Under the pieces are notes generated by a model. The model was not told where the DNA came from. It searched no databases and saw only the letters and a list, made by a program, of their open reading frames with translations. Positions 1,266 to 43,204 of a stretch of 64,000 nt of DNA are shown piece after piece. Origin of the DNA: Mycobacterium paragordonae. Its GTDB lineage: Bacteria; Actinomycetota; Actinomycetes; Mycobacteriales; Mycobacteriaceae. Made by a program: the position numbers and the translations under genes. Within the stretch, counting starts at the first letter, position 1, and the number at the start of each line of letters is the position of its first letter. Location: assembly GCF_003614435.1 (NCBI RefSeq), contig NZ_CP025546.1:3906001-3970000 (forward strand), in the 5' to 3' direction.

Positions 1266-1351
1266 GTCCGAGTGGCGGAATGGCAGACGCGCTAGCTTGA
1301 GGTGCTAGTGCCCTACTAATGGGCGTGGGGGTTCAAGTCCCCCCTCGGACA
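1266..1351 (+). tRNA. tRNA-Leu (anticodon GAG)
   Basis: Complete class II tRNA. The acceptor stem GTCCGAG (1266-1272) pairs with CTCGGAC (1344-1350), followed by discriminator A at 1351. The anticodon stem CTAGC/GCTAG encloses a loop with GAG, there is a long variable arm, and the T-arm is GGGGG-TTCAAGT-CCCCC. CCA is not encoded. The 3' part from the T-loop onward is the attachment site of the element to the right: 1334-1352 is duplicated exactly at 43186-43204. The tRNA stays intact because the inserted element brings the same 19 bases. Confidence 0.97.
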
Positions 1352-2979
1352 CGTCCGGCGACACGACTTAAGTCGGCAGTCGCCGTGACTCGCTGAAGAT
1401 GCGGGTCGTAGTCGAGGCGCAGGCCCAGGCTTGCGTATACCTGAGCGCGTTCCGCCCCGGTTGCCTCACCAAGCACTGCTGACAGCCCGCCCAATTCCTC
1501 AACCAACTCGCTGATTTGTGCGGCAGTCATGACGCGAGGTCGCTCCGCTTGCTCAAGACGGACCTTCAGCTCGTCGCGCTCGGCGGTGCGGCGGCGCAAT
1601 GCAACAGTCAAATCCTCAACGGCCACACCAGACTCCACGGCGGTAACCAGAGCAGCAACCTTCGCATTCGCCTCGCTGAGCTGGCGCCGCAAGGCCGCGT
1701 AGCCAGCCCCTGCTACCGGGTCCGCGTCTTGCCCGCGTGCCAAGTCGGCCGGATCGGCCAGGGTGGCGATCCATTCGTCAAGTCGCGCAGTCACCTCATC
1801 TTCACGGAGGTAGACGGTGCGCGGGTGATCACTCAGGTCCGCGGGTACCGAACGCGACTTACCGAGCTCACAACGGTAGAGGATGCGTGTTGTTCGCTTC
1901 CCGGCGCGGGCAGCGCCCTGCATCCGCCGTCCACATGCGGCACAGAACAGCAGCCCACGCAGTGCATATGGCACTGTTGACTCTCTGCTGCAAACAAGAC
2001 CGGGACCCCGCCGCGCCTGCATCCGAAGACGAACAGCCTGCGCTAGTTCGTCACGGATCAGCGCTTCATGCGTGCGGCGTTCTGGTGCGATCCAGTCGGC
2101 CTCATCACGCCACCGCATACGAGTCTCATACCCCGCAGCGACATCATCGGGGTTGACCAGAACCTCGTATTTCTCCTGCTTGCCCCAAACACGGATACCG
2201 CGGTACGCCGGGTTGTCGAGTATCGCGCGGATCGCCGAATGGGACCATCCTCGTGGGTCACGATGCCGATTCCGTGCCGGGTCGTACTGGCTCGGTGACG
2301 GTACACCATCGTCGGTGAGCCGTTGCGCGATATAGCGCAGGCCCGCTCCGTCGGCGTACATGCGGTAGATCCGCTCGACGACCGAAGATGTCGCGGGGTC
2401 GGGTTCGAGGCGGTGAAGCCGCTGCCCAAGATTGGCCTTGGCAGGGTTTGGATGCGGGCCGGCATCGACGAGCCGGTAACCGTAGGGTGGTCGACCACCG
2501 AGATATCTGGCGGTGTCGTGCGCGAGTGCTGACATCGCCGTACGGACGCGCATCTGGATTCGAGCGCGCTCTCCCTTGCTCATGCCGCCGAACAGAGTCA
2601 TCACCAGGTCGTGTGCCTCGGAGCCGGGATCGACCGCTCCGCCGACCTCGGGTACCCACAGGCCAACTCCGTAGTGCGTGAGGACAGGGAAGGTGAGCGC
2701 GAACTGCGGCCCGTAGAACGCACGGGCGGGTTCCCCAATCACTACGGCATCAAAGCTACGGTCCCGACAAGCGACATCAGCAAGCAGACGTGACGCCTCT
2801 GGCCTGCGCTTCCACGGCAGTGAACGGCTCTGTCCCACATCGAAGTAGTCGGCGGCGATGAATCCGCCGTGCGGAGTGATCAGGTCCATGGCACGCCGCT
2901 TCTGCCAGCTGCGGCTCGCCTCCGGGTCTTGAGCGTCCTCCGTGCTCACTCGGCCATAGAAGGCGAACCTCAGGCTCAC
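1333..2979 (-). CDS. Large serine recombinase / integrase of the element
   Basis: Site-specific recombinase expected to integrate and excise the element at the tRNA-Leu 3' end. The 548 residues run as follows: resolvase catalytic domain (about 1-150) with nucleophile Ser12 in FYGRVSTED; Recombinase domain (about 165-290) with GGRPPYGYRLV; zinc-ribbon region beginning FCAACGRRM (about 335-390); then a helical, probably coiled-coil, C-terminal part. The GTG start overlaps the stop of the upstream small gene (GTGA), so the two are translationally coupled. The stop codon at 1333-1335 lies inside the tRNA gene, and the last residues (RVRGGT) are encoded antisense to the tRNA 3' end. After excision the frame would continue for 14 more residues. 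Large serine integrases more often use protein-coding genes than tRNA ends, so the target is unusual. Confidence 0.93.
   Translation of the reverse strand: MSLRFAFYGRVSTEDAQDPEASRSWQKRRAMDLITPHGGFIAADYFDVGQSRSLPWKRRPEASRLLADVACRDRSFDAVVIGEPARAFYGPQFALTFPVLTHYGVGLWVPEVGGAVDPGSEAHDLVMTLFGGMSKGERARIQMRVRTAMSALAHDTARYLGGRPPYGYRLVDAGPHPNPAKANLGQRLHRLEPDPATSSVVERIYRMYADGAGLRYIAQRLTDDGVPSPSQYDPARNRHRDPRGWSHSAIRAILDNPAYRGIRVWGKQEKYEVLVNPDDVAAGYETRMRWRDEADWIAPERRTHEALIRDELAQAVRLRMQARRGPGLVCSRESTVPYALRGLLFCAACGRRMQGAARAGKRTTRILYRCELGKSRSVPADLSDHPRTVYLREDEVTARLDEWIATLADPADLARGQDADPVAGAGYAALRRQLSEANAKVAALVTAVESGVAVEDLTVALRRRTAERDELKVRLEQAERPRVMTAAQISELVEELGGLSAVLGEATGAERAQVYASLGLRLDYDPHLQRVTATADLSRVAGRVRGGT
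1334..1352. repeat. Left attachment-core repeat (attL core)
   Basis: CAAGTCCCCCCTCGGACAC, identical to 43186-43204. It covers the T-loop/T-stem 3' half, the acceptor 3' strand and the discriminator of tRNA-Leu. On the minus strand it encodes the last codons of the integrase. Identity ends sharply on both sides (T versus C before, G versus C after). Confidence 0.93.
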
Positions 2980-3173
2980 GCCACTCCCCTCCCTGATCCA
3001 AGCATCCGGTCCCGCACAGCCATTATCACGTGTACCAGCGCGCGGTTGGCCTCGGACGGAAGTCGATATTGGTTGGGCACAACAATTTCAACACCCCCCT
3101 CTGACACCGTCGGCGCATCGGGACGAGCGTCACACCCGGAGCGAGCACGTGCTGCTCGGGACCTGTCAGCCAT
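2976..3173 (-). CDS. Small basic protein in the xis/RDF position
   Basis: 65-residue protein of unrecognised family. The ATG at 3173 overlaps the end of the Rep gene by 8 bases, and its stop overlaps the integrase GTG start, so rep, this gene and int form one coupled unit. In pSAM2-type AICEs the gene between rep and int is xis, so a directionality factor is the best positional guess. No MerR/Xis-like winged-helix motif is obvious. The N-terminal third is Arg/Ala-rich (MADRSRAARARSG) and the C-terminal half looks helical (SEANRALVHVIMAVRDRM). An upstream in-frame ATG at 3218 would give 80 residues inside rep, but the coupled start is preferred. Confidence 0.65.
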   Translation of the reverse strand: MADRSRAARARSGCDARPDAPTVSEGGVEIVVPNQYRLPSEANRALVHVIMAVRDRMLGSGRGVA

Positions 3174-4671
3174 CGCTTCCCCCTGGCGGATCCCATTGTT
3201 GATTGCGGGCTTGGCCACGGACTTCGATCAGTCCGATGCGGCGGGTGTGGATGTGTTGGACGGCCGCGGAGTAGATGAGGGTCCGGTCGCCGAGGCTGGT
3301 GGGGCCGGCACGATCGAATTCCCATGCCACCAGATCATCGCCATCGGTGGAGTCGAGGCCGAGATCATGTTGGTGCGCAGTGCTTTTTAAACGTTGTTCA
3401 CGGGTCCAGGCCGCGCGACGTTCGCGCAGCGCGGTCATCGTGGTGGAATAGCGGCGGGATTTGCTGGTGATGTGGCCCCGGTAGCCCAGGGTGTGCAGCC
3501 ACCGACCGACACCGGCCAGTCCCTTATCGGCGAGTTGGCTGATGGCGGTCAGGATCGCCCGAACGTGGTCGCAGACATCGAGGTCAGCGATGGCCTCGGT
3601 GGAGATGCGTCGCGCGCTGATCCCGACGTCAGCTAAGGATTTGGTGACGTATTTCGCGAGGTAGCGAGCTACGCGGCGGCCTGGAAGAACCCCGCCGTGT
3701 GGTGAATCCTCCTGCACAGCAGAGCCGTCCGTGCCGGCGTGCCGGTTGTCGATGGGTTGGGTGTCGACTTGTGTGCCGAACCTGATCACCCGTGTCGCTG
3801 TATTTGAGGATGAGTCGGTGACCGTCACGGCCACGGTTCGAACGGCCTGTTGGATGATGGTGGCCAGTTCGGTTGCCGCAAGGGGCGCATGCCAGTCATG
3901 ACCGCCAGAGTCATCGCTGTCGGGCGGGTCGAGGCGGATCAGGGCATGAATGTGCGGGATGAGCCGGGCTTGCAGTTCGACGACTTTGATGAAGCTGACC
4001 TGCACCGCATCCGGGTCGGCGCCCGAAGCACGTAGCTCTCGGCGCAGTGTGCGTCGCAGGGTGATGGTGAAGCGTCGCCACAGTTCGGGCAGGTGCCATG
4101 TGAACAGGACATGCCCGGTGTAGTCGTAGCAGTCCGCGCAGATCGGCTGTCCCGCATAGATATCACCTTCGCCGTGGGTTGTGCTGCACCACAGTGGTTT
4201 TCCATGCGGGCATCGGCGGTAGCCGCCAGTGTGGTGGTGGTCGCGACACACACGCTGCTTCTTGTCGCCTGCACGCGCGGCGGCGTGAACAGGCCCGTAG
4301 CTAGGTGCGGTGAGGGTGACGAACACCTGCGGACGATCGGCCACTGCTGCGGGGATGTTGTGGTGGCCGCCGGCGGTGCCAGCGTGCACGAGCTGCCACG
4401 TGTCGCGGGCGTACAGGTCTGAGCACGATGGGCATACCTGTGCGCGGCGGTTGTTGCACCGTGTCCACACCACCCGATCGCGGCCTATCTCGTCGGTACC
4501 TCTGAGTTGGATGGGGTGGGCGCAGAAGCCAACAGATTCCGCGCGCCGCCACCACGATTCGAACCCCGTCGAGGACGCGCGGCGCACCATCTGATCCACC
4601 ACCGCATTGGTGTCGATCGAGCCGGGAACCCCGGGCAACACCAGCGTGGGGGCTGTCGTTGCAGTAGTCAC
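3166..4671 (-). CDS. RepSA-like rolling-circle replication initiator
   Basis: Plasmid-type initiator protein of 501 residues, the family that replicates excised AICE circles. It has an N-terminal Cys-rich metal-binding region (CNNRRAQVCPSC near 72-83, and further Cys/His pairs to about 182). It carries the HUH metal motif as H240-I-H242 in LIPHIHALIRLD, and a candidate catalytic tyrosine motif RYLAKYVTKS with Tyr337 and Tyr341. The start ATG overlaps the translocase stop by 4 bases (ATGA), and its own 3' end overlaps the xis-position gene. Replication after excision is known for pSAM2 RepSA; here it is inferred. Confidence 0.9.
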   Translation of the reverse strand: MTTATTAPTLVLPGVPGSIDTNAVVDQMVRRASSTGFESWWRRAESVGFCAHPIQLRGTDEIGRDRVVWTRCNNRRAQVCPSCSDLYARDTWQLVHAGTAGGHHNIPAAVADRPQVFVTLTAPSYGPVHAAARAGDKKQRVCRDHHHTGGYRRCPHGKPLWCSTTHGEGDIYAGQPICADCYDYTGHVLFTWHLPELWRRFTITLRRTLRRELRASGADPDAVQVSFIKVVELQARLIPHIHALIRLDPPDSDDSGGHDWHAPLAATELATIIQQAVRTVAVTVTDSSSNTATRVIRFGTQVDTQPIDNRHAGTDGSAVQEDSPHGGVLPGRRVARYLAKYVTKSLADVGISARRISTEAIADLDVCDHVRAILTAISQLADKGLAGVGRWLHTLGYRGHITSKSRRYSTTMTALRERRAAWTREQRLKSTAHQHDLGLDSTDGDDLVAWEFDRAGPTSLGDRTLIYSAAVQHIHTRRIGLIEVRGQARNQQWDPPGGSDG

Positions 4672-6101
4672 CGTTGACCCCGGGCGGTGTCGGTGCGCCC
4701 GCTGTTGGACTGGTTGGTTCGGGTCGCGGCACGAGGTGGCCGGAATCGTGCTGCCAGAGTGGCGATGTCGTGGTCGGCGACGTGAAATGCCCGTACCCGC
4801 ACCGGTTGGGCCGTGCCATCGATCATCATGTAGCCCACACCGGGAGTGGTGTCGGGGATGTGATCGCAGTCGGCCCCCGCGTCGCGGGCGCCCTGGCCCA
4901 AAACCATGGTGGTTTGGGTGGCTTCGGTCAACCGCAACCCGATTCGCACGGTAAACAGCTGCCGCACCGGCAGGGTGTCTTTGGCCGGATCTTGCACCGC
5001 TGCCACCACCGAAATGCCGACGGCCCGGCCTTGGGAGAGCAGCAGGCCCAACAGCTGTTCAATTTCGCTGCGCACCTTGCGGTCGGTCACATACGCAGTC
5101 AGCGCGGCGATCTCATCGATCACCACCACGAATAACGGCTCAGTCGGAGTCGGGGTGTGCATGCGCGTCTTGCCCCGTAACCGATTGGCGCGGGCGTGCA
5201 TCACCTCCACTAGTTGCCGCAGCAGGTACAGGGTGGTGCCAGTGGCGTCGTGGGTGAACACCGTGAACATGGGTGCTCCGGCGCCCAGTTCCATGCCGCC
5301 TTTCGGGTCGATGACGCAGAGCCGCACTTGTCCGGTTTTCACGGCGGGGGCGAGGCCAGCGATCAGTGACCACAACACTGAACCTTTCCCCGCGCCGGTC
5401 GCGCCAGCCACGAGCAGGTGGTGGCCAAGCAGAGGTAGGTGCCACCAGTGGCGGGTTTCGGTGATCCCGACCCGCACCGACCCCACATCCACCGCAGTCG
5501 CCGTCGTGGGCATGGGCAGGGCAATCGGGTCGGCCAGCACGTCGCCGCGCATCAGGGTGATGCGTAGCTCTCCGGGCGCGGTCGCGCGGATGGCGATCCG
5601 GTCGGCACGCCAGGCGGCGGCTAGCGCCTCGGATTGCTTGTGCCAATCAGCCAGGGAGTGGCCGGTGACCACTCGCAGCGCCAGGACGTCGGTCGTCTTG
5701 CCGATGCGCACCGACTGCAAGGTCGGCACCAAGGTGCGTTCGCCAAGTGTGGCGGTCAGGCCGTGCAGGGTGCACACCGATTGCCAGGTGCGGGTGTAGC
5801 GCGACCAGGTCAACCAGCGCCGCCGCACCGGCTCGGTGACCCATCCGTGAAACGATCGCGGGTCCAGCCACGCCCAGCCCGCATACGCGGCAGCGAAAGC
5901 AATACCGATGATCAGACCCGCGCGTGAGCCATGGGTAATGGCCATCGCCACGCTGGCGATGATCGGGATGCTGATGGCCGGGAACAGGACCGCCCACCAC
6001 AGCAGATACCCGGCCGCTTTGAACAGTGAGAGGATGAGGTCGGTGATCCAGTCGTCGTCGTTGGATTGAGAGTTCTTGCTGTTTTTGTAGTTTGATGCCA
6101 T
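4668..6101 (-). CDS. FtsK/SpoIIIE-type conjugative DNA translocase (TraSA-like)
   Basis: Single-protein transfer pump that moves double-stranded DNA between mycelia or cells in AICEs. The 477 residues have a polar N-terminus, two predicted membrane segments (about 24-62), then a cytosolic RecA-like motor with Walker A GATGAGKGS near 230 and Walker B VVVIDEIAAL near 320. No relaxase or type IV secretion genes are nearby, which fits the AICE mode of transfer. It is the first gene of the tra-rep-xis-int overlapping run; the regulator gene 6191-6535 lies 89 bases upstream in the same direction. Confidence 0.93.
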   Translation of the reverse strand: MASNYKNSKNSQSNDDDWITDLILSLFKAAGYLLWWAVLFPAISIPIIASVAMAITHGSRAGLIIGIAFAAAYAGWAWLDPRSFHGWVTEPVRRRWLTWSRYTRTWQSVCTLHGLTATLGERTLVPTLQSVRIGKTTDVLALRVVTGHSLADWHKQSEALAAAWRADRIAIRATAPGELRITLMRGDVLADPIALPMPTTATAVDVGSVRVGITETRHWWHLPLLGHHLLVAGATGAGKGSVLWSLIAGLAPAVKTGQVRLCVIDPKGGMELGAGAPMFTVFTHDATGTTLYLLRQLVEVMHARANRLRGKTRMHTPTPTEPLFVVVIDEIAALTAYVTDRKVRSEIEQLLGLLLSQGRAVGISVVAAVQDPAKDTLPVRQLFTVRIGLRLTEATQTTMVLGQGARDAGADCDHIPDTTPGVGYMMIDGTAQPVRVRAFHVADHDIATLAARFRPPRAATRTNQSNSGRTDTARGQR

Positions 6102-6774: not shown

Positions 6775-7593
6775 ATGTGCGCTGAGACGACGGGCGATCA
6801 GGACGGCGACGCCGAGGCCGCCACGATCCCCAACGATCGCCTCACCCAACGGCTGCACGCCAAGGGACTCTCCCCACAGAGGTTCGCCACTGCGGTGGGC
6901 GTGGATATCAAGACGGTGCGCCGCTGGCTGGCCAACATCGACTACAACGTCCGCGAGGACAACGCCCGCCGCGCCGCTAAGCTGCTTGGCTGCACACCGC
7001 ACAACCTGTGGCCCAACCAGTATCCTGCCCCTACCGCGAGCGCGCTGGCGACGACGTCGCTGGGTGGTCCGTTCACCGCGACGCTGTATGCCAGCCGCAC
7101 CCAGCTGCCGATCACGACGTGGCAGCAGCATTTCGGCGACGCCACCACCGGCATCGACATCCTCGTCCTGGCGGCCACGTTCCTGTTTGACACCCTCGAC
7201 GGCTTCCTCGACATTCTGCTCGACGCCGCCGCCCGCGGTGTGGCGGTGCGGTTTCTCGTCGGGGATCCTGACACTGCCACCACGATCCTGCGCGGCAAGG
7301 AGGAAGGCATCGGCGAGGCCGTCATCGCCCGCTGCCGCACGTCCGTGGAGTTGCTCGCCCCGCATGCCGATACCCCGGGGCTGGATATCCGCACCCACGA
7401 CACCACGCTCTACACGTCGATCTTCCGGGTCGACGACGCCATGATCGTCAACTTCCACATCTACGGCTCACCCGGGCGCAACAACCCCGTGCTTGTGCTG
7501 TCGCGCCACCACGAACCACGGCTCTGGGCCACCCTCGAAGACGCTTTCACCCAGGTCTGGGATCGCGCCAGACCGCTCAGCGCGAAAGGCTGA
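6775..7593 (+). CDS. HTH regulator with C-terminal PLD-like (DUF5919-type) domain
   Basis: 272 residues. An XRE/Cro-like helix-turn-helix lies at about 20-75 (LSPQRFATAVGVDIKTVRRW). A C-terminal domain of about 170 residues follows, with LYASRTQLPITTW, TFLFDTLDGFLDIL and VRFLVGDPD, the pattern of the phospholipase-D-like DUF5919 domain, without an obvious HKD catalytic motif. This architecture is common beside AICE transfer genes. It is divergent from the tra-rep-int operon and 5 bases ahead of the Nudix gene, so it probably controls element induction (inference). Confidence 0.85.
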   Translation: MCAETTGDQDGDAEAATIPNDRLTQRLHAKGLSPQRFATAVGVDIKTVRRWLANIDYNVREDNARRAAKLLGCTPHNLWPNQYPAPTASALATTSLGGPFTATLYASRTQLPITTWQQHFGDATTGIDILVLAATFLFDTLDGFLDILLDAAARGVAVRFLVGDPDTATTILRGKEEGIGEAVIARCRTSVELLAPHADTPGLDIRTHDTTLYTSIFRVDDAMIVNFHIYGSPGRNNPVLVLSRHHEPRLWATLEDAFTQVWDRARPLSAKG

Positions 7594-7598: not shown

Positions 7599-8066
7599 AT
7601 GCGAACCGACTACTACAACGACCCCAACGCCCCGCTGCCCAACAGCGTCGTTCCGTCAGCCTCGGCCATCGTCACCGACGAACAGGGTCGTATCCTGCTG
7701 ATCAAACGCCGCGACAACACCCTGTGGGCGCTACCCGGCGGCGGACACGACATCGGCGAAACGATTGCCGACACCGCCGTCCGGGAAGTCAAAGAGGAAA
7801 CCGGGCTCGACATTGAAGTCACCGGCCTTGTCGGTGTCTACACCAACCCGCAGCATGTCGTCGCGTTCACCGATGGCGAAGTCCGCCAACAGTTCTCTCT
7901 GTCCTTCACCACCAAGGTTCTCGGCGGTACCCTGGCCATCGATCACGAAAGCACCGACATCGCCTGGACCGATCCCGACGACATCCCCAATCTGGACATG
8001 CACCCGTCGATGCGACTGCGCATCGAGCACTACCTGCAACACCGCGACAGCCCCTACCTCGGCTAA
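7599..8066 (+). CDS. Nudix hydrolase, candidate Pif-like immunity factor
   Basis: 155 residues with a full Nudix box at about 48-70: GGHDIGETIADTAVREVKEE, followed by TGL. All catalytic Glu/Arg positions are present, so it should bind Mg2+ and hydrolyse a nucleoside-diphosphate derivative. The Nudix protein Pif of pSAM2 prevents redundant transfer into cells that already carry the element (established for pSAM2). Position and cotranscription with the HTH regulator suggest the same role here, but a housekeeping sanitising function is not excluded. Confidence 0.88.
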   Translation: MRTDYYNDPNAPLPNSVVPSASAIVTDEQGRILLIKRRDNTLWALPGGGHDIGETIADTAVREVKEETGLDIEVTGLVGVYTNPQHVVAFTDGEVRQQFSLSFTTKVLGGTLAIDHESTDIAWTDPDDIPNLDMHPSMRLRIEHYLQHRDSPYLG

Positions 8067-9585: not shown

Positions 9586-10731
9586 TCATAGGGAACGCGA
9601 GATGATTTCCTTCATCACCTCATTTGTGCCGGCGTAGATTTTCTGCACGCGCTGGTCCACCCACAATCTCGAGATGGGGTACTCGGTCATGTACCCATAT
9701 CCGCCGTGGAGCTGCAAACAGTCATCGAGCACCTTCATCGCTCGCTCAGTGGTCCACCATTTCGCCATGGCGACGGTCTGGACGTCGAGTTGGCCCGCGA
9801 GGTGTAGGTCGATGCAGTAGTCCAAAAATACTCGTGCGATGCGCGTTTCGGTTGCAGCTTCGGCCAAGATGAATTTCGTGTTCTGGAAGCCGAAGACGGG
9901 CCGTCCGAACGCTTCCCGCTCACGGGTGTATTTGAGTGTCTGCTCCACGGCAAGTTCCATCGCCGCGACCGCCCCAACCGCGACGATGAGCCGCTCTTGA
10001 GGTAGCTGCGTCATCAGCTGAATGAAACCCTGACCCTCGGTCTCGCCCAGGAGGTGCGAGCGGGGCACTCTTACGTCGTCGAAGAACAACTCGGAGGTGT
10101 CTTGTCCGCGTTGGCCGATTTTGTCGAGGACCTTGCCGCGCCGGAATCCGGGTCGATCGGCTTCGGCGACGATCAGCGAGATGCCGGCGGCGCCCTGACT
10201 TGGATCTGTCTTGGCGACGACGATGATCAGGTCGGCTTGCTGACCGTTGGTGATGAAGGTCTTTGCGCCGGTGATCACGTACTCGTCACCGTCAAGAATT
10301 GCTTTGGTCTTGACACTCTGCAGATCAGAACCGGTCCCTGGCTCCGTCATGGCGATAGCACCGATCATTTCGCCTGAGGCCATCTTGGGCAGCCACTGCC
10401 TCCGTAGTTCTTCGGCCGCATACTGGAGGATGTAGTGCGCGACGATTCCGCTGTGCAGCCCTGCGCCCCATGAGCTGTCCCCGACTCGGGCTTGCTCTTC
10501 GAGTACGACGGCTTCGTGCGCGAATGTGCCGCCTCCCCCGCCGTATTCTTCGGGTATGGACATGCAGAGCAGGCCTAGTTCGCCGGCTTTGTGCCACAAT
10601 TCTCGGTCAACTTGGTGCTGGTCTGCGAAACGTTGCGCATGTGGGGCCAATTCGGTCGAGAAGAACTTCGCGGCAAGGTCACGAAGCTCGAGCAATTCGG
10701 CGCTCATCCAGGGAGAAATTGATGCTGTCAC
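9586..10731 (-). CDS. Acyl-CoA dehydrogenase
   Basis: FAD-dependent alpha,beta-dehydrogenation of an acyl-CoA thioester (first step of beta-oxidation). 381 residues, full length. It shows the N-terminal helical domain, the flavin motif AIAMTEPGTGSDL and the C-terminal HGGYGYMTEYPISR. The usual medium-chain catalytic Glu position reads YAGTNEV (Ala), so the base is probably the Glu in AMELAVE of helix G, as in long-chain and isovaleryl-CoA dehydrogenases. It ends the leftward set P450 - transglutaminase-like - CoA ligase - dehydrogenase, 42 bases after the ligase. The chain type is unknown. Confidence 0.93.
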   Translation of the reverse strand: MTASISPWMSAELLELRDLAAKFFSTELAPHAQRFADQHQVDRELWHKAGELGLLCMSIPEEYGGGGGTFAHEAVVLEEQARVGDSSWGAGLHSGIVAHYILQYAAEELRRQWLPKMASGEMIGAIAMTEPGTGSDLQSVKTKAILDGDEYVITGAKTFITNGQQADLIIVVAKTDPSQGAAGISLIVAEADRPGFRRGKVLDKIGQRGQDTSELFFDDVRVPRSHLLGETEGQGFIQLMTQLPQERLIVAVGAVAAMELAVEQTLKYTREREAFGRPVFGFQNTKFILAEAATETRIARVFLDYCIDLHLAGQLDVQTVAMAKWWTTERAMKVLDDCLQLHGGYGYMTEYPISRLWVDQRVQKIYAGTNEVMKEIISRSL

Positions 10732-22048: not shown

Positions 22049-22114
22049 CTGCTTGCCTTTCGGATCGCGACACTGATTTCCGGTGCGGGAGACCATTGAT
22101 TTGGGGGCATCAGC

Positions 22115-22138
22115 CACCATTGGTGTCGCATGCCACCA
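22115..22138. promoter_or_regulatory. Candidate TetR operator for the BVMO operon
   Basis: CACCA-T-TGGTG at 22115-22125 is a perfect 11-bp palindrome, and another CACCA at 22134-22138 pairs with the same TGGTG across 8 bases. It lies in the 120-bp gap between the SDR operon and the divergent TetR gene, so autoregulation and control of the BVMO operon are plausible. Confidence 0.45.
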
Positions 22139-26837: not shown

Positions 26838-27114
26838 CGCCGCTTCCTTCCTTGTCAGTAGCACTGTTGAGACTCGTCAAAAGCTACGTTTCATCACGGC
26901 TTCCCGGCTGACAGTAGGTGCCAACACCAACACGCGTGACCGCAGCCAACCTCAGCCGCGCATCTCGACAGCCTATGGCGATGGGGCACATTGACTTTCG
27001 ATCGCTAGTCCTGCATCAACACGTCAACGGTAAGAGCCACAGACGCGCAGCACTCAACCGTTGTACTCAGCTCGCTTGCTCCCGTGGTCGCGCTCCCGCG
27101 CTTCGGCTGCTTTA

Positions 27115-28221: not shown

Positions 28222-28239
28222 GTGTGTCCTTACCTTTCT

Positions 28240-31798: not shown

Positions 31799-31823
31799 CG
31801 TCAACCTCAACTAACCTCATTGT

Positions 31824-36761: not shown

Positions 36762-37379
36762 CTATCTATAACCATCGCCGAGGTAGCGGAGCGCCACCCG
36801 CGAGATCCGCGCACCCGTGGTGGCGATGTCCGCGGAGGGAAGGACGACGTGACTCACGGTGAGCCGCACCAGAACGTCTGCGACCTCCTCGACGTCTTCG
36901 GAGTCGAGATCGGCGAAGTGGTCGTGAAACCACGCGACCAAAGCCGCGGAGGAGAGCTGGAGCAGGGACGCCGATGTCGGCAGGAGAGGAAGAACGCCCG
37001 TCGTCGGCGCACCGGCGCGATCATCCCCTGAGTGGCTGGACGTCAGCACCGACTTCAGGAGCGGACTGGCTTCTGCTTCACGCAGGGTGAACCGCACCGC
37101 TGCGGTGATGCCGCCCTGAACGTCGCCGGTGTGTTCGGCGAGGATGGCGTGGATACCCTCCAGGAAGCGCTGACCCTCGGCCACCACGAGCGCGTCACCA
37201 AGTCCCTGCTTATCGCCGAACTCCTTGTATAGCGTCGGTCGGGAGACGCCGACAAGTTCGGCGACCTCACTCACTCGGACTTGTTCCCAGCCCTTCTCAA
37301 TGGTGAGTTCCCGTGTCGCCCTCAAGACCTGCTCGCGGATATGTCGGCGAAACGACATCCGCGCCGAATCAGTTGGCAT
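36762..37379 (-). CDS. TetR-family regulator
   Basis: 205 residues from the ATG at 37379 (a TTG at 37436 overlapping the hydrolase stop is the alternative). HTH at about 25-60: VSEVAELVGVSRPTLYKEFG. Helical effector domain. It follows the alpha/beta hydrolase and thioesterase in the same direction, so it may be cotranscribed with them. Target unknown. Confidence 0.87.
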   Translation of the reverse strand: MPTDSARMSFRRHIREQVLRATRELTIEKGWEQVRVSEVAELVGVSRPTLYKEFGDKQGLGDALVVAEGQRFLEGIHAILAEHTGDVQGGITAAVRFTLREAEASPLLKSVLTSSHSGDDRAGAPTTGVLPLLPTSASLLQLSSAALVAWFHDHFADLDSEDVEEVADVLVRLTVSHVVLPSADIATTGARISRVALRYLGDGYR

Positions 37380-37432
37380 ACGAGCAGAATAGGTGGCGAA
37401 CTGGGATCTCCCGCGCAGCCCGACGACTGGCG

Positions 37433-38344
37433 TCAAACGGTACGGTCGAGAAAGTCGACGACCGCCGTCGAGAATGCGTCGTTGTTGTCGCCAGCAACCA
37501 TGTGGCCCGCGCCCGACACGTCAACGGTTTGCGCGTGGGGAACCAAGGTGAGGAAATCCTTCACTGTCTCTTCGGAGACTATGTCCGACAGCAGGCCGCG
37601 GACCAGCAGCGCCGGCGCGGACACCTGTCGCGCGCCATCGACAAGGAATGCGCTCATCATCTCGAACTCCTCTGCGCCGTCGTCTGAATCACTCTGCAGG
37701 AACTGAAAATTCGACGTCGCAAACGCCGGATCCCATCGCCAGGCCCAGCGACCGTCTCCACGTCGGCGGAGGACTTTTTGAAGGCCGTCGACGTTTTCGG
37801 GGCGAGGGCGGTGCGGGTTGTAGGCGGCGATCACGTCAGCGGCCGACTCTAGGCTGTCGAAACCTTCGGGATGGGCCGACATGAACGATAGGACTCGGCG
37901 GGCGCCGTGCATCTGCATTCGCGGAGTGATGTCAACCAGGACGACGGCCTGCCATAGCTCCGATGGGGCGAGCAAGTGCGTGCCGAGGATGGTCAAACCG
38001 CCCAACGATGCCCCGATCGCGGCAACTGGGCGGGCGGAGCCGGCGTACGCGCGCACGGCCAACAGGTCGGACCCCAGCCGTTCGATGTCATAGCGTCCGT
38101 CTGGATCCCAGTCGCTGTCACCATGTCCCCTTGCGTCGTAGGCGGCAACGGTGTAGCCCCGCTGATGCAATCGTTGGGCGGTGACATCCCAGGCGTGCCG
38201 GCTCTGACCACCGCCGTGAAGGAGCAACACGACCGCCCGCGGTCCGTCACAGCGGTAGAAGTCGACCGCCAGCGAGAGCCCATCCACCGTGGGCACGCGC
38301 TCGACGACAGGAGCGGACGAATCATGTGCTCTGTTTGCAGACAT
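37433..38344 (-). CDS. Alpha/beta hydrolase
   Basis: 303 residues from the ATG at 38344, overlapping the thioesterase stop by one base. Alpha/beta fold with LLHGGGQSRHAWD (oxyanion), YDARGHGDSDWDPDG, nucleophile Ser in GASLGG and His in GAGHMVAGDN; Asp in LVRGLLSDIV. Esterase or thioester/lactone hydrolase by family. Middle gene of thioesterase - hydrolase - TetR. Confidence 0.9.
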   Translation of the reverse strand: MSANRAHDSSAPVVERVPTVDGLSLAVDFYRCDGPRAVVLLLHGGGQSRHAWDVTAQRLHQRGYTVAAYDARGHGDSDWDPDGRYDIERLGSDLLAVRAYAGSARPVAAIGASLGGLTILGTHLLAPSELWQAVVLVDITPRMQMHGARRVLSFMSAHPEGFDSLESAADVIAAYNPHRPRPENVDGLQKVLRRRGDGRWAWRWDPAFATSNFQFLQSDSDDGAEEFEMMSAFLVDGARQVSAPALLVRGLLSDIVSEETVKDFLTLVPHAQTVDVSGAGHMVAGDNNDAFSTAVVDFLDRTV

Positions 38345-38787
38345 CAAGAGATGGCCTTCGGTGCGACGACGGTGACGGTGCCCTGCGCCGCACACACCGC
38401 TCTGCCGTCGTTGCAGATGTCGATACGTGCCACACCGCTGGTTCTGCCCAGCGAGATGATCTCAGCCGTGGCTACACAGGTTCCGCTGGAGACTGGACGA
38501 AGCAAATTCAGTTTGAACTCCGTCGTCGCGACCCAGGATCCCATCGGAATCACGGGATAAAACACCACTCCAAGGCAATGGTCGACCATGGCCGACAAGC
38601 AGCCGCCATGCAAGTTGCCGAAAGGCGTCTTCAGGTCGTCGCGTGCGTCCATCTCCGCGACGAGCCGTCCAGCAGTGAATTCAGTGTGCCGGAAGCCGAG
38701 GTAACCGGCCAGCCCGCCCGTGGTTTCTGCTGCGCTCTGCAGTTGTTCAGCGACCTGCTGGTTGAACGCGGTGAACTGCACAGACAT
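38344..38787 (-). CDS. PaaI/hotdog-fold thioesterase
   Basis: 147 residues, single hotdog domain: TPFGNLHGGCLSAMVDHCLG (catalytic helix region) and TTEFKLNLLRPVSSGTCVA. Cleaves acyl-CoA or aryl-CoA thioesters to recover CoA. Coupled to the alpha/beta hydrolase; TetR gene 48 bases upstream in the same direction. Confidence 0.88.
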   Translation of the reverse strand: MSVQFTAFNQQVAEQLQSAAETTGGLAGYLGFRHTEFTAGRLVAEMDARDDLKTPFGNLHGGCLSAMVDHCLGVVFYPVIPMGSWVATTEFKLNLLRPVSSGTCVATAEIISLGRTSGVARIDICNDGRAVCAAQGTVTVVAPKAIS

Positions 38788-38834: not shown

Positions 38835-39467
38835 TCACATCGGTCGACAATGGTCGCTCGCCAGGATTGCGGGAAGGAGAAACCTTGAAAGAAATGTCCG
38901 GAGCCCGTCACGACTGCGCTCCCGCGGTCCTCGAACAGTCAGCAGGCTCAGTATCGTGCGGAGAACCCACTCGGCGGCGTCGTCGACGGAGACGCCCGGT
39001 TCTACGTAACTCCAGTGTCTCCTGAAGATGGGACGGAGAAACTCGGTGACGAGTTCGAAGAGTGACGTCGAGGTCCCCGCCGCGAGGCCAACGCCGGCGA
39101 GTTCCTCGTCGCTGCCGAACAACAATCCGATGATCTCTTCGCGGCGCGCGGCCTCAACTGTGTATTCCACGAAATCGACGAGAGCGGAGCCCAGATCGGT
39201 GTGCTCCGCGATCCGGGGGTTGATGCGATCGAGATAGCGCTCGGCGGCGCGAATGATGACGCCCGACATCACCGCCTCCCGATTAGGGAAGTAGCGATAC
39301 ACCGTTGCCCTGGAGACACCCGCTGTTCTGCCGATGTCCTCCATGGTCGTGCCTACCACGCCGCAACTCTCTAGGCACCGCTCGGCAGCATCTAGCAATC
39401 GGTCGCGAGCGGAATCACGATCTGACGGCGCGGCGGCACCCCATCGCACCAACTTCGTCGACACAAC
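38835..39467 (-). CDS. TetR-family regulator
   Basis: 210 residues from the GTG at 39467; earlier starts (to 39527) cannot be excluded and no clear ribosome site decides. HTH: MEDIGRTAGVSRATVYRYF. C-terminal helical domain. Divergent from the thiolase-remnant/ADH/carboxymuconolactone-decarboxylase-like set at 39.57-41.7 kb and probably its regulator. Confidence 0.85.
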   Translation of the reverse strand, partial: VVSTKLVRWGAAAPSDRDSARDRLLDAAERCLESCGVVGTTMEDIGRTAGVSRATVYRYFPNREAVMSGVIIRAAERYLDRINPRIAEHTDLGSALVDFVEYTVEAARREEIIGLLFGSDEELAGVGLAAGTSTSLFELVTEFLRPIFRRHWSYVEPGVSVDDAAEWVLRTILSLLTVRGPRERSRDGLRTFLSRFLLPAILASDHCRPM

Positions 39468-39514
39468 AGCCAGTATGCCGCGGGCGCACACCATTGTGGC
39501 TTGACTGCAGATAT

Positions 39515-39534
39515 GACACCATCGCATTCGTGTC
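39515..39534. promoter_or_regulatory. Candidate TetR operator
   Basis: GACAC-(10)-GTGTC inverted repeat in the gap between the TetR gene (leftward) and the TTG-started rightward operon. Arm length of five is modest. Confidence 0.32.
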
Positions 39535-39568: not shown

Positions 39569-40003
39569 TTGTCGGTAGAAGCGCGTACTCCGGTGGCGGT
39601 CGGCGTAGGCGAAGTCACCCATCGCGGGGACGACGTCGTCACCGGCCTCGGTTGGTATTCGACGAAACATTCGGTCGGTGTGTGGTCGGCCACCCCTCCA
39701 CCAACCGGGTGGCGACTGATCGACACGGCAGACGAACAAACTCCGATCGATTCATCGCGGCTGGCCGTCGCAGGCGTCGACGAGGCGACCGGTCGCGCGA
39801 CAGTGGACGGGTACACGGTCGAATACGACCGAGACGGGCGACCTCGATGGACACCGACCATCGCGCACCTGTCCGACGGGCGAAGAGTCGTCGCACGCAG
39901 CGACGATCCGCAGATTGCCGAGGCGATGGCGGGCGAGATGTACGTTGGCAGAACGGTTTGCCTCCGAAACACAGGGTCGTCCACGGGATTCGAGCTTCCA
40001 TGA
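39569..40003 (+). CDS. Thiolase-like protein with catalytic core deleted (TLP1 N- plus C-terminal pieces)
   Basis: 144 residues from a TTG start. Residues 1-24 (RTPVAVGVGEVTHR) match the N-terminus of mycobacterial acetyl-CoA acetyltransferase/TLP1-type thiolases. The next residues (GLGWYSTKHSVGVWSATPPP) already belong to their extra C-terminal domain, which continues through DGYTVEYDRDGRPRW to the end. About 350 residues of thiolase core, with the active-site Cys and His, are absent, but the frame is kept. The protein cannot be a thiolase; it may be an OB-fold-like acyl-CoA-handling remnant or simply a relic. Its TGA overlaps the next ATG (ATGA). Confidence 0.72.
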   Translation: MSVEARTPVAVGVGEVTHRGDDVVTGLGWYSTKHSVGVWSATPPPTGWRLIDTADEQTPIDSSRLAVAGVDEATGRATVDGYTVEYDRDGRPRWTPTIAHLSDGRRVVARSDDPQIAEAMAGEMYVGRTVCLRNTGSSTGFELP

Positions 40004-41172
40004 TCGCCGAGGCCATGGTGTTGACCGGACCGCGGAATCTGGAGCGGCGCCAGATGACCATCCCCGACGTCGGTGACCGCGGTGCGATCCTGCGAGTTGA
40101 AGCATGTGGTCTATGCGGTACAGATCACGAACAATTCACCGGACACCTGCCTGCCGGCTTCTCATTCGTTCCAGGTCACGAAATCGTCGGCATCGTCGAA
40201 CATGTCGGCAATGCGGCCAGCGAACGCTGGTGCGTCCGGGCCGGCCAGCGCGTGGCCGTCGAGGTGTTCCGGTCCTGCCGAGACTGCCCGGAGTGTCGCC
40301 GCGGCGAATACCGGCGATGTGCGGTGAACGGCATCGCCACCATGTTCGGGTTCGTCGACGTGGAGATCGGCGCCGGGTTATGGGGCGGATACGCCACCCA
40401 TGTGGAGCTTCCGTGGGACGCGATGCTACTCCCGATTGCCGAAGACATGGACCCCGTTCTCGCCACGTTGTTCAACCCTCTCGGGGCCGGTATCCAATGG
40501 GGGAAAACTCTTCCCGACACCAAGGCGGGGGGTATCGTAGCGATACTGGGACCGGGCATCCGCGGGATCTGCGCGGCGGTGGCGGCGAAAGAGGCGGGAG
40601 CCGCTTTCGTCGCGATGACCGGCATCGGTCCACGCGACGATCAGCGACTGGCCATAGCCAGATCATTCGGTGTCGACCTGCCCATCGACGTATCGCAGGA
40701 CGATGCAGTGACAGCGCTCCAGCGTGAGACAGGCGGACAGCTTGCCGACGTGGTCATCGATGTCACCGCCAAAGCACCCTCCGCGTTCGCCGACGCCGTC
40801 GCCCTTGCCAGGCCTGGCGGCAGGGTCGTGGTTGCTGGCACCCGCGGCGGAGGCGGCGCGCCCGGCTTTGAACCAGACACGCTGGTGTATAAGGAATTAC
40901 ACATCGCCGGTGCACTCGGCGTGGAGTATCCCGCCTACCGGGCAGCCCTCGAGATTCTGGCCACGCGCCGCTGGCCGTTCGACCGGATCACAAGAGAATC
41001 AACCGGATTCGCTGGTCTCGCGCCGCTGCTCAGTTCGCTTGCAGATGAAAATGCCAAATCGAGTGCGGCCCTGCACAACGTCTTCGTGCCCACGCCCTCA
41101 CAGCATGCGGAGCTTCAACAGAGGAAGGTCACACGTGACGAGAACGGAACGCGTACCGATGCTCGACCTTGA
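40000..41172 (+). CDS. Zinc-containing medium-chain alcohol dehydrogenase
   Basis: 390 residues from the ATG at 40000, coupled to the preceding gene. Catalytic-zinc CGLCGTDHEQF and GHEIVG, structural-zinc lobe CRDCPECRRGEYRRC, Rossmann region ILGPGIRGICAAVAAKEAG. Threonine-dehydrogenase-like subgroup; alcohol or diol substrate unknown. Its 3' end overlaps the next gene by 38 bases. Confidence 0.9.
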   Translation: MIAEAMVLTGPRNLERRQMTIPDVGDRGAILRVEACGLCGTDHEQFTGHLPAGFSFVPGHEIVGIVEHVGNAASERWCVRAGQRVAVEVFRSCRDCPECRRGEYRRCAVNGIATMFGFVDVEIGAGLWGGYATHVELPWDAMLLPIAEDMDPVLATLFNPLGAGIQWGKTLPDTKAGGIVAILGPGIRGICAAVAAKEAGAAFVAMTGIGPRDDQRLAIARSFGVDLPIDVSQDDAVTALQRETGGQLADVVIDVTAKAPSAFADAVALARPGGRVVVAGTRGGGGAPGFEPDTLVYKELHIAGALGVEYPAYRAALEILATRRWPFDRITRESTGFAGLAPLLSSLADENAKSSAALHNVFVPTPSQHAELQQRKVTRDENGTRTDARP

Positions 41173-41713
41173 GCAGGCCCGGCTGCGGGCTGCCGAGTGT
41201 GGGCTGCCCGCAGAGATGGCAGAACTGTCAGTATTTCGCGTGGCACTTCACCAGCCGAGCCTCGCAGTGGCCCTGTACGGAATGCTTGAGGCGCTGCTAT
41301 TTAACGGTGTGCTCGACGCCCGGCTACGCGAATTGATCATCATGCGCATCGGCTGGGTAACGGGGTCGGTATATGAGTGGACACAGCATTGGCGAATCGC
41401 GACGCTGCTCGGTGTGGCTTCGGATGACCTTCTGGCGGTGCGTGACTGGCAGAGTTCCAATCGTCTGGGCCATGCCGAGCGTGCGGTCCTGGCGGCGACC
41501 GATGATGTGGTACGTGACGGGGTCATTGCCGAGGAAAACTGGGCCGCGTGCCACAAGGCATTCAATGGCGATCACGCGGTTTTGGTCGAACTTGTCGGAG
41601 CGATCGCCAATTGGCGGCTCTTTTCGATCCTGCTTCGATCCTTGAATATTCCGCTTGAGTCGGGTACCGACTCCTGGCCGCCCGATGGGCGAGCCCCTCG
41701 ACGTGACGATTGA
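41135..41713 (+). CDS. Carboxymuconolactone decarboxylase-like (AhpD-fold) protein
   Basis: 192 residues from the GTG at 41135 (AGGAAGG seven bases upstream). CMD/AhpD-type helical fold: RELIIMRIGWVTGSVYEWTQHWRIA. It lacks the CxxC of peroxidase-type AhpD, so decarboxylase/hydrolase or unknown function. Last gene of the rightward thiolase-remnant - ADH - CMD unit. Confidence 0.87.
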   Translation: MTRTERVPMLDLEQARLRAAECGLPAEMAELSVFRVALHQPSLAVALYGMLEALLFNGVLDARLRELIIMRIGWVTGSVYEWTQHWRIATLLGVASDDLLAVRDWQSSNRLGHAERAVLAATDDVVRDGVIAEENWAACHKAFNGDHAVLVELVGAIANWRLFSILLRSLNIPLESGTDSWPPDGRAPRRDD

Positions 41714-42355
41714 GTAAAAACGGTTGTTCAGCAATCGCACCCAAGTTGAAGCTCGGTTACCCCTTATGTTCCTAGTCAGTTGTGGGCTATTGAATTTCAA
41801 ACGGGTAGTTGTGATTTCGGTCTCTTAGCCACGGTCTCGGGGTAATGCCACCAACTGGACATGTGGAGCCAACTGTTCTGGGACGCCTACACCAGCTTGA
41901 AGCACGCTCCGTCATACGAATACGATCCAAGGGATGTCGAGGTTCTTCGCGACTCAGGCCAACTGTTACTACTGGGAGAGTCGTTCAATCGGGTCGCTGG
42001 CAACAGAACGCCAATGAAGGCGATCGTCGGCAGTCACCGCACACAGCACCTCACGCAGAGAATTCAAGAGCCCGCTGCTGCAAGCTAGACCCGGCGTCCG
42101 ACACCGAGGCGCTGCCGTCTTCATACAGCTGACCACGAACGCCAGCCGCGCCGAAGTCCCACCGGGGACGGCAAACACCTTCCGCCGCAACACCTTCGGA
42201 TGCAGCTTGGACGGAAGGCCACCAGCCACCATAATATCGACCGTCTCGGCGTCGCCAGCACCGCGGACGAATCGGTGTACCGGCCCGTTGCCACCTCGCC
42301 TCCGGCTTGCGCGGGTCAATCTCTCAGGTCGTCGTTGCCACACTCAGAAGTGACA
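41714..42355. other. 640-bp stretch with no recognised gene
   Basis: Several short frames exist on both strands, but none has a recognisable motif, a ribosome site or family-like composition. It may contain decayed sequence between the last cargo operon and vapBC. Confidence 0.5.
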
Positions 42356-42384
42356 TGTACAAATCACGGTTCAGCGAGTGTACA
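42356..42384. promoter_or_regulatory. Paired TGTACA palindromes upstream of vapB
   Basis: TGTACA at 42356-42361 and 42379-42384, centres 23 bp apart, ending 9 bases before the vapB GTG. Antitoxin operators are usually palindromes at this place. TACAGT (42381-42386) could be a -10 hexamer placing transcription close to the GTG, so the message may be leaderless. Confidence 0.4.
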
Positions 42385-42393
42385 GTTCACGGT

Positions 42394-42654
42394 GTGGAGG
42401 TATCCGTGACCGAGTTGCGCGCGCACCTTAGCGATTGGCTCGATCGAGTTCGGGCTGGTGATGAGGTCGTCATCACCGACCGCGGGATTCCGGTCGCGCG
42501 ACTCGCTGCGCTGGACAGCGCAGGCACCTTGGAGCGTCTCACGGCCGAAGGCGTGATTGCCAGGGCCACCGCGCAGCGGCCCGTCGCTGCGGGACGGTCC
42601 CGGCCCCGACCGCGGCGGCCGGTGTCTGACCAGGTCAGCGACCAGCGGCGCTGA
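42394..42654 (+). CDS. vapB: VapB/Phd-type antitoxin
   Basis: 86 residues from the GTG at 42394. Phd/YefM-like N-terminus VSVTELRAHLSDWLDRVRAG followed by DEVVITDRGIPVARLAAL binds operator DNA; the Arg/Pro-rich C-terminal tail should mask the toxin. Ends 3 bases before vapC. Probably autoregulated. Position next to the right end suggests stabilisation of the element by post-segregational killing (inference). Confidence 0.88.
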   Translation: MEVSVTELRAHLSDWLDRVRAGDEVVITDRGIPVARLAALDSAGTLERLTAEGVIARATAQRPVAAGRSRPRPRRPVSDQVSDQRR

Positions 42655-42657
42655 CCG

Positions 42658-43092
42658 GTGCCGCTCGTCTACTTCGACGCCAGCGCCTTCGTTAAACTTC
42701 TCACCACCGAGACAGGAAGCTCGCTGGCATCCGCGCTGTGGGACGGCTGCGACGCCGCATTGTCCAGCCGCCTGGCCTACCCCGAAGTCCGCGCCGCACT
42801 CGCTGCAGCAGCCCGCAATCACGACCTAACCGAATCCGAGCTCGCCGACGCCGAGCGTGACTGGGAGGACTTCTGGGCCGCCACCCGCCCAATCGAACTC
42901 ACCGCCACGGTTGAACAGCACGCCGGCCGCCTCGCCCGCGCCCATGCCTTGCGCGAAGCCGACGCTGTCCATCTGGCCAGCGCGTTGGCAGTCGGCGAAC
43001 CCGGCCTGATCGTCGCCGTTTGGGACCGACGCCTGCACGCCGGAGCCCAAGCCGCCGGGTGCCGACTCGCCCCCGCCCAACTCGACCCCTAA
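42658..43092 (+). CDS. vapC: VapC-type PIN-domain toxin ribonuclease
   Basis: 144 residues from a GTG. PIN-domain acidic residues: Asp in LVYFDASAFVKLL, Glu in RLAYPEVRAALA, Asp in LREADAVHLASAL and Asp in VAVWDRRLH. A metal-dependent endoribonuclease, typically against tRNA or rRNA. Directly follows vapB; 93 bases remain to the right attachment repeat. Confidence 0.92.
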   Translation: MPLVYFDASAFVKLLTTETGSSLASALWDGCDAALSSRLAYPEVRAALAAAARNHDLTESELADAERDWEDFWAATRPIELTATVEQHAGRLARAHALREADAVHLASALAVGEPGLIVAVWDRRLHAGAQAAGCRLAPAQLDP

Positions 43093-43185
43093 TCCGACCG
43101 CTCGACGTCAGAGGTGGGTCGACCCCGGCATGGATGACGATCAGGTACCGATTCGCCAGGTCAGAACCCGTGTCGTAAGTGGCCA

Positions 43186-43204
43186 AGTCCCCCCTCGGAC
43201 ACCC
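43186..43204. repeat. Right attachment-core repeat (attR core)
   Basis: CAAGTCCCCCCTCGGACAC, identical to 1334-1352. Only the tRNA 3' segment is present; the upstream sequence does not fold as tRNA, so this is the duplicated end and not a second tRNA. CGTGTCG lies 8 bases to its left (43171-43177). Confidence 0.93.

Follow-up and report, generated by a model that had tools for sequence, protein, structure and literature searches.

Genes and boundaries of the block

The window (the whole stretch of 64,000 nucleotides of Mycobacterium paragordonae DNA that was analysed) contains a block of 41.9 kb (41,869 bases) bounded by a perfect 19-bp direct repeat (Table 1). Both copies of the repeat, CAAGTCCCCCCTCGGACAC, are free of mismatches, and the left copy forms the 3′ end of a tRNA-Leu(gag) gene. 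Repeat, block and tRNA-Leu site are as a preliminary description of this DNA had proposed, apart from right-hand coordinates that were off by one or two bases. In shuffled sequence, the 19-mer had a mean of 0.02 matches when up to three mismatches were allowed. GC content in 2-kb windows was 55–66% within the block versus 64–75% on its right side, a composition not taken as proof.

Table 1. Features of the block (window positions, strand, product and basis of the assignment)
Positions	Strand	Feature	Basis
1266..1352	+	tRNA-Leu(gag), integration target, left intact	ARAGORN
1334..1352	+	attL core	19-bp direct repeat
1333..2979	-	large serine recombinase (integrase); stop codon overlaps attL core	PF07508 76.9 bits, PF00239, PF13408; motif YGRVST
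3166..4671	-	RepSA replication initiator, pSAM2-type	PF20199 423.6 bits (cut-off 34); HIHA, YLAKY motifs
4668..6101	-	FtsK/SpoIIIE transfer protein (Tra)	PF01580 57.5 bits (cut-off 24); GATGAGKGS, VVVIDE motifs (Walker-type)
6775..7593	+	HTH regulator-like protein, weak match	PF01381 23.2 bits (cut-off 23)
7599..8066	+	Nudix protein (compare Pif of pSAM2)	PF00293 78.5 bits; role suggested by available text of PMC3218068
8077..8622	-	HD-domain phosphohydrolase	PF01966 42.1 bits
8954..9433	+	transposase relic, backbone/cargo junction	homologous pJCM15296 stretch has CDS annotated transposase
9586..10731	-	acyl-CoA dehydrogenase	PF00441 and others
10774..12399	-	acyl-CoA ligase (FadD-type)	PF00501
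12414..13226	-	transglutaminase-like protein	PF01841
13064..14521	-	cytochrome P450, not CYP153	PF00067 222 bits; nearest in PDB CYP120, 177 bits
14637..16220	-	BVMO-like flavin monooxygenase 1	cyclohexanone monooxygenase 223 bits; BVMO fingerprint
16234..17199	-	alpha/beta hydrolase (HSL/esterase family)	PF07859 192 bits
17196..18713	-	BVMO-like flavin monooxygenase 2	cyclohexanone monooxygenase 243 bits; BVMO fingerprint
18761..20260	-	BVMO-like flavin monooxygenase 3	fingerprint with Y for F at first position
20257..21180	-	ferritin-like protein	pJCM15296 homologue annotated ferritin-like; no Pfam match
21182..22546	-	short-chain dehydrogenase; true start probably further in	PF00106 144.6 bits, residues 183-372
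22977..23846	-	metal-dependent hydrolase family protein	PF10118
23920..24609	+	TetR regulator	
25737..26864	-	BtrH-N/DUF4872 protein	
27115..28221	-	zinc alcohol dehydrogenase, NDMA-dependent type	PF08240/PF00107; homologues annotated NDMA-dependent ADH
28229..29681	+	IS110-family insertion; transposase ORF 28431-29666	NF033542 226 bits (cut-off 140)
29723..31351	-	long-chain acyl-CoA ligase	NF004837 667 bits (cut-off 476)
31388..31810	-	SCP2-like protein	PF02036 22.0 bits (cut-off 21.3)
32060..33262	-	ferredoxin reductase	PF07992, PF14759
33259..34650	-	CYP153 alkane hydroxylase (predicted)	heme motif FGFGVHRCMG; CYP153A7 482 bits
34671..34991	-	2Fe-2S ferredoxin	PF00111 39.1 bits
35109..36119	+	AraC regulator, divergent from CYP153 operon (CypR-like)	NF053784 CypR 91.5 bits, under cut-off 500
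36762..37436	-	TetR regulator	
37433..38395	-	alpha/beta hydrolase	
38344..38787	-	4HBT thioesterase	
38835..39527	-	TetR regulator	
39652..41172	+	zinc alcohol dehydrogenase; true start further in	
40724..41713	+	carboxymuconolactone-decarboxylase-family protein, C-terminal part of ORF	PF02627, residues 182-261
42307..42654	+	Phd/YefM antitoxin (PhdYeFM)	PF02604 41.9 bits
42658..43092	+	PIN-domain toxin (VapC-like)	PF01850 40.4 bits
43184..43202	+	attR core	19-bp direct repeat

As proposed earlier, transfer and replication genes lie at the left end, where a serine recombinase, RepSA, an FtsK/SpoIIIE protein, a Nudix protein and an HD protein are encoded. Judged by their domains, the first three are the core gene set of an actinomycete ICE (AICE). 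The locus thus has the hallmarks of an AICE: an integrase gene ending inside attL, a Rep of the RepSA type, an FtsK/SpoIIIE Tra, direct repeats and an empty site. Neither a T4SS nor a relaxase was found in 40 element translations scanned with Pfam, and no excisionase or directionality factor stood out among the genes of Table 1. The pair at the right end had been called vapBC; its toxin is indeed of the PIN type, but the antitoxin belongs to Phd/YefM. The junction relic has no Pfam match and is IS110-like in our own reading, and the IS110-family insertion farther into the cargo is missing in all ten other full copies of the block.

The cargo contains the claimed CYP153 system, with ferredoxin and reductase genes adjoining. 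Against PDB P450s, the CYP153 protein scored 690 bits for the best match, 688 for alkane hydroxylase 8b2p and 482 for CYP153A7. Type I BVMOs carry the fingerprint FxGxxxHxxxW(P/D) and two Rossmann motifs. Three BVMOs had been announced, and three FMO/BVMO-type proteins are present; the fingerprint is exact in two of them, while the third has Y, not F, at position 1. For 16 cargo genes, dN/dS was 0.02–0.24 (versus G022, G170 and NBB4), with higher values against the M. aubagnense plasmid (fadD1 0.86 at dS 0.02, tetR 0.44, araC 0.33). A "complete" alkane/ketone pathway and growth on alkanes are predicted from homology.

Arms CGTGTCG/CGACACG border the core in the reconstructed attP of all 15 elements compared, several of which are near-identical to each other. 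This set comprises the window and 14 of 20 other elements fetched, in which two cores were found; G284, G069, G410, G244, G216 and G315 lacked two cores in the 20–80 kb fetched per element. A search for a further core gave only 4-mismatch copies in G284 (80 kb) and G069 (60 kb), and in G410, where the right-hand genes were reached at 32 kb, a second core occurred only with 4 mismatches, at 15,044. Another copy of the 19-mer, with 3 mismatches, lies at 3089–3107 between int and repSA. It recurs in 6/6 near-identical copies, and in G284 with 4 mismatches. It was rejected as a third att site because it is absent from that place, at up to 4 mismatches, in six diverged elements (G112, G216, G022, G170, G365 and G069).

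Copies, empty site and wider distribution

A near-clean empty tRNA-Leu site occurs in the close relative G006, whose genome gave neither an integrase nor a cargo match in the genome-set searches; that of G010 is near-clean too, but less exact. Only these were recovered because sequence after attR differs from host to host, several hosts having kilobases before the conserved right-hand genes. The full block, attL to attR, was traced in ten other mycobacterial genomes at 99.2–99.99% identity, with 3, 4, 5, 8, 11, 37, 46, 304, 306 and 307 mismatches over 40,343–40,443 of 41,869 bases aligned (40,422 for the closest copy). The left flanks of the carriers are only 78–91% identical to that of the window, those of M. 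asiaticum, sp. 852002-51961 and M. gordonae not being alignable. Integration of the block as a single unit is therefore strongly supported, both by the empty site in G006 and by identical ends in ten genomes with diverged flanks. Since the block is almost letter for letter alike in other mycobacterial species, the element appears to have jumped recently between them. The empty site and the comparison with relatives, both suggested in the preliminary description as checks, thus bear it out.

Across the genus, an integrase match was found in 68/396 genomes and the core cargo in 38/336 scored (own genome counted in both; 60 unscored), where cargo-bearing means at least 4.5 kb of a 7.2-kb query at 76% identity or more. 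Any cargo match at all was found in 93/336; the 55 left out were shorter or weaker (e.g., G284 and G253, 67–75%), a number of them located at contig ends and others elsewhere in the chromosome. Of the 38 cargo-bearing genomes, 36 also have the integrase, and 34 have the two on a single contig, 9.1–24.4 kb apart (Fisher p about 1e-30, without correction for phylogeny); among the 336, 22 of the 58 genomes with an integrase fall under the cargo threshold. The AICE integrase went undetected in G299 (the NBB4 plasmid) and G334. Such cargo without the left AICE module had been named beforehand as evidence against the proposal and does count partly against it; it shows that the cargo lives outside the element too, and does not undo the element. 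Related cargo is found on plasmids of M. chubuense NBB4 and M. aubagnense. More distant elements of 52.8–61.0 kb have the same site and core cargo, and other family members are without that cargo, among them small ones of 8.8 kb (G167) and 12.7 kb (G395) with no match to cargo 9468–36200.

By matching coordinates, genome handles refer to Mycolicibacter sp. MYC123 (G374), M. peregrinum DSM 43271 (G201), M. longobardus DSM 45394 (G205), M. arupensis DSM 44942 (G102), Mycobacterium sp. 1164985.4 (G128), Mycobacterium sp. E1214 (G223), M. parascrofulaceum (an element carrier, L123/G124), M. austroafricanum (G061), Mycobacterium sp. IS-1742 (G277), M. koreensis (G239), M. brisbanense (G237), M. iranicum (G252), M. 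novocastrense (G245) and M. ahvazicum (G258); G299 is M. chubuense NBB4, judged by its matching region.

Proposed life cycle and alternatives

The block is best read, with a probability of about 0.88, as a single integrated mobile element that belongs to the serine-recombinase AICE family of the mycobacterial tRNA-Leu, with the following cycle and an oxidation cargo. By recombining attL with attR within the 19-bp core, the serine recombinase would release a circle, which RepSA would copy by rolling-circle replication. The FtsK-type Tra protein would carry the element into a recipient, where the recombinase would insert it into tRNA-Leu(gag) with the 3′ end of the tRNA restored. Re-entry may be restricted by the Nudix protein, and the toxin–antitoxin pair may promote retention. 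The cargo would serve as a mobile oxidation island. Alkane attack would start with CYP153 and its ferredoxin and reductase; ketone opening would fall to dehydrogenases and BVMOs together with an esterase, and acyl-CoA ligases plus a dehydrogenase would feed into beta-oxidation.

It is conceivable, though very improbable, that a small AICE of about 8–9 kb landed beside an unrelated chromosomal catabolic region, the distant repeat being a relic. The small cargo-free members would suit such an origin, and the transposase relic could mark the junction. This was rejected on the end points common to ten other full copies, which share the 42-kb unit at ≥99% identity; moreover, the attP arm sits before the core at 43184 as in other elements, and G006 lacks integrase and cargo alike. 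Another unlikely possibility is that only integration is the block's own doing, entry into hosts relying on a helper conjugative plasmid, distributive conjugal transfer or phage transduction. Related cargo sits on large plasmids, and 40–61 kb is not far from the packaging size of some phages. Against such entry, the RepSA and Tra reading frames are open with dN/dS of 0.17–0.28 (versus G022, G170, G210 and G284), and homologous replacement would not yield ends that coincide with att cores in ten hosts with diverged flanks.

A reading that is doubtful but deserves some weight keeps the element mobile and gives its cargo a different substrate. Candidates are cyclic ketones, terpenoids and steroid side chains, or the cargo might remodel lipids of the host cell itself, like mymA-like clusters. 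Cyclohexanone monooxygenase is the nearest PDB match of BVMO1 and BVMO2, the best NCBIfam match of all three BVMO-like proteins is pentalenolactone D synthase (far under its cut-off), and the AraC–BVMO–lipase–SDR–ADH–FadD set presumably resembles mymA. However, the combination of CYP153 with a dedicated ferredoxin and reductase and a divergently oriented AraC gene fits alkane systems, and the homologous cluster belongs to NBB4, an alkane/alkene degrader; the available text gives C5–C14 as predicted substrates of that cluster (PMC8784404).

Significance and comparison with known systems

Even odds can be given to a broader picture, in which one tRNA-Leu site serves several clonal lineages of very large AICEs (40–61 kb) that are moving through Mycobacteriaceae as intact units. 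These would be the chromosomal counterpart of hydrocarbon-oxidation sets that are also plasmid-borne, and the family would have alkane oxidation in common as a trait that can be transferred. If so, transfer by a single FtsK-type protein works for up to 61 kb between cells that form no mycelium, which raises the question of how one such protein could move 40–61 kb in bacteria of this kind. The element would provide a concrete means by which mycobacterial species could pass a whole predicted alkane/ketone oxidation set to one another, and would connect chromosomal elements with the cluster that a known hydrocarbon degrader has on a plasmid. Nearly identical copies occur in named type strains and are open to direct tests.

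An AICE family in the mycobacterial tRNA-Leu has been known since 2011; its catabolic load or near-identical spread was not found in the literature searched. The integrase of pSAM2 is of the tyrosine type. The pSAM2 and mdp-nud-xre AICEs resemble the present element in RepSA, FtsK-type Tra, and Nudix, HD and HTH genes, as far as the available text goes (PMC3218068), and differ from it in that it has a serine recombinase, 42 kb and a large catabolic cargo. In the same text, Ghinet et al. 2011 listed eight mycobacterial serine-recombinase AICEs in one tRNA-Leu, alike in recombinase, site, cross-species similarity and AICE gene set; catabolic cargo and near-identical copies are not described there (PMC3218068). 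The M. parascrofulaceum element may be among those eight. The earlier remark that AICEs are mostly smaller fits one survey, whose available text gives 11.9–36.3 kb for Streptomyces AICEs and defective AICEs (PMC9513070). ICEMyc226 is likewise a mycobacterial ICE with xenobiotic-degradation genes, but is described in the available text as 388 kb, of T4SS type with a relaxase, with two T7SS and a DDE-type recombinase (PMC7478629). In the 60 kb examined of NBB4 plasmid pMYCCH.01 (615 kb; 615,278 bases), neither an att core (up to 4 mismatches allowed) nor a match to six AICE proteins is present. Its core block is 80.8% identical to the window over 15.1 kb. Its CYP153 block, inverted relative to the window, is 75% identical over 4.0 kb and likewise has the divergent araC (MYCCH_RS28400), beyond which 2.0 kb are 86.6% identical.

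Boundaries and backbone of the element

The preliminary description had proposed an AICE delimited by a perfect 19-bp direct repeat, and both points were borne out. Inward from the left end, a large serine recombinase is followed by RepSA, an FtsK/SpoIIIE protein, an HTH protein (a weak match), and Nudix and HD proteins. The recombinase contains the motif YGRVST, Tra has Walker-type motifs, and Rep has HIHA/YLAKY. The last 19 bases of the tRNA-Leu(gag) gene, which contain the end of the integrase gene, recur without mismatch 41,850 bases away; in shuffled sequence, the 19-mer gave a mean of 0.02 matches even allowing up to three mismatches. In the reconstructed attP, CGTGTCG and CGACACG occur at fixed distances around the core in 15 of 15 elements (several near-identical), and these arms, centred near core base 9, would fit the expectation for a serine-recombinase attP.

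Features of the window
Feature	Position	Remark
GC-rich intergenic repeat	1040-1202	short, on the left side of tRNA-Leu; matched at numerous sites across related genomes
tRNA-Leu(gag)	1266-1352
attL	1334-1352	left 19-bp copy
Cargo compared with other elements	9468-36200
Equivalent of G227 insertion point	15668-15673	BVMO1
IS110-family insertion	28229-29681	between ADH and acyl-CoA ligase genes
G374/G201 insertion point	36363-36375
attR	43184-43202	right 19-bp copy, 0 mismatches

A relative with an empty tRNA-Leu site, to which the preliminary description had looked, was found in the mycobacterial genome G006, with a near-clean joint. Its flanks are 92% and 94% identical to those of the window, the right-flank match (43203 onward) directly continues the tRNA 3′ end, and neither the genus genome scan for the integrase nor the core cargo scan gave a match. 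About 80 bases separate the tRNA and right-flank matches in G010, and 1.0 to 6.8 kb in G017, G031, G023, and G026. Judged by its sequence, the block is a genuine and seemingly complete AICE. It belongs to a mycobacterial family already described (Ghinet et al. 2011, PMC3218068), is large, and has predicted catabolic functions.

Near-identical copies in other species

The integrase was matched at E ≤1e-60 in 68 of 396 genus genomes (its own included) and is 99–100% identical in 13 besides the window's own. Among named species genomes, a scan limited to close relatives placed 50 of 51 integrase loci in Mycobacteriaceae by record title; the remaining copy, 49% identical, was from an actinomycete MAG. 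The element was traced from attL to attR in ten other genomes, where mismatches to the window over about 40.4 of the 41.9 kb numbered 3 (G227), 4 (M. peregrinum DSM 43271, G201), 5 (Mycobacterium sp. E1214, G223), 8 (Mycolicibacter sp. MYC123, G374), 11 (G199), 37 (Mycobacterium sp. 1164985.4, G128), 46 (M. longobardus DSM 45394, G205), 304 (G093), 306 (G016), and 307 (G070). G070 itself differs from G093 at 3 and from G016 at 5 of 40,431 bases. The unaligned remainder is chiefly the window's IS110 insertion, missing in all ten copies. The left flanks of these hosts are 78–91% identical to the window's, and such precise ends beside diverged flanks argue for site-specific integration over homologous replacement. 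There is strong sequence evidence for recent transfer of the AICE between species.

The G374 and G201 copies carry extra stretches of 5,895 and 5,540 bases, respectively, identical (100%) over two aligned pieces (4,271 and 1,273 bases), differing in length by 355 bases, and with 13 bases repeated at their ends; because this insertion is common to both at the same place, they form a sub-lineage. The otherwise nearly identical G227 copy has a 2.6-kb insertion that breaks the first BVMO gene. IS110 is a family of RNA-guided transposases, and the window's insertion may be polar on downstream catabolic genes.

Other full elements share the site and the 19-bp core, at 8.8 (G167), 12.7 (G395), 29.7 (G210), 31.6 (G388), 52.8 (G022), 54.7 (G170 and G365), and 61.0 kb (G112). 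G170 and G365 show 22 differences in 54,712 bases, G112 and G216 2 in 57,646 compared. Over the first 7.6 kb, G112 was 100.00% identical to its counterpart in 5 of 9 comparisons, and G022 in 4 of 6, despite alignable flanks only 75–88% identical. The window's cargo had no match in the four shorter elements or in the stretches examined of G284, G069, and G410. AICEs of the 61-kb kind (G112, G244, and G216; L083-L085) have a tRNA-Lys(ctt) gene at locus 4732-4811, and G210 (L075, L101) has tandem AICEs at one tRNA-Leu, the second integrase region starting where the first element reaches its right-hand 19-bp core.

Catabolic cargo and its linkage to the backbone

The alkane/ketone oxidation island of the preliminary description stands as a gene set, its role being predicted by homology. 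It includes a CYP153 system (CYP153, ferredoxin, reductase, and a divergent AraC gene), a further P450, and three BVMO-like proteins. Also encoded are two each of zinc alcohol dehydrogenases and acyl-CoA ligases, an acyl-CoA dehydrogenase, an SDR, a thioesterase, an HSL-type hydrolase, and TetR regulators. For 16 cargo genes tested against G022, G170, and NBB4, dN/dS was 0.02–0.24 (rough ratios, as dS was often >1); a few ratios were higher in the comparison with plasmid pJCM15296, for which dS is small (fadD1 0.86, tetR 0.44, araC 0.33). We read these ratios as cargo kept functional across lineages.

Cargo and backbone appear to travel together. When genomes were counted as cargo-bearing if 4.5 kb or more of the 7.2-kb core cargo matched at ≥76% identity, 38 of the 336 genomes scored (of 396) qualified, and 36 of these were among the 58 with the integrase; both lay on one contig, 9.1–24.4 kb apart, in 34 genomes and on different contigs in G071 and G310. 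Among the 38, the same cargo without the left AICE module, the counter-case raised beforehand, was seen in two exceptions: G334, where it lies on a chromosome-sized contig whose 60 kb examined showed neither an att core at ≤4 mismatches nor any backbone DNA match, and M. chubuense NBB4 (G299), where it lies on plasmid pMYCCH.01. When a 24.9-kb stretch of cargo served as query, the M. aubagnense plasmid pJCM15296 (L190) matched 93% of it at 95.8% identity, with cargo blocks of 3.0 and 16.0 kb at about 97%; adjoining partial backbone matches include an annotated recombinase of 380 aa (548 aa in the window), a possible trace of AICE-plasmid exchange. The G284 chromosome has a homologous P450/BVMO cluster (67–75% identity) at C1:5209974-5215796, a long way from its AICE integrase at C1:1297509; such clusters are therefore not restricted to tRNA-Leu elements.

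In titles and abstract openings from a full-text search of open-licence literature, no description of catabolic mycobacterial AICEs was found. Excerpts of published work describe one AICE-like contig in a Mycolicibacterium survey (PMC8190616), ICEMyc226 as an ICE of the T4SS type that carries xenobiotic genes (PMC7478629), and Streptomyces AICEs and defective AICEs of 11.9–36.3 kb (PMC9513070). For the NBB4 CYP153 cluster, the excerpted account predicts C5–C14 alkane substrates and names as regulators MYCCH_RS28400 and RS28420 (PMC8784404), both of which lie within the CYP153 block of pMYCCH.01.
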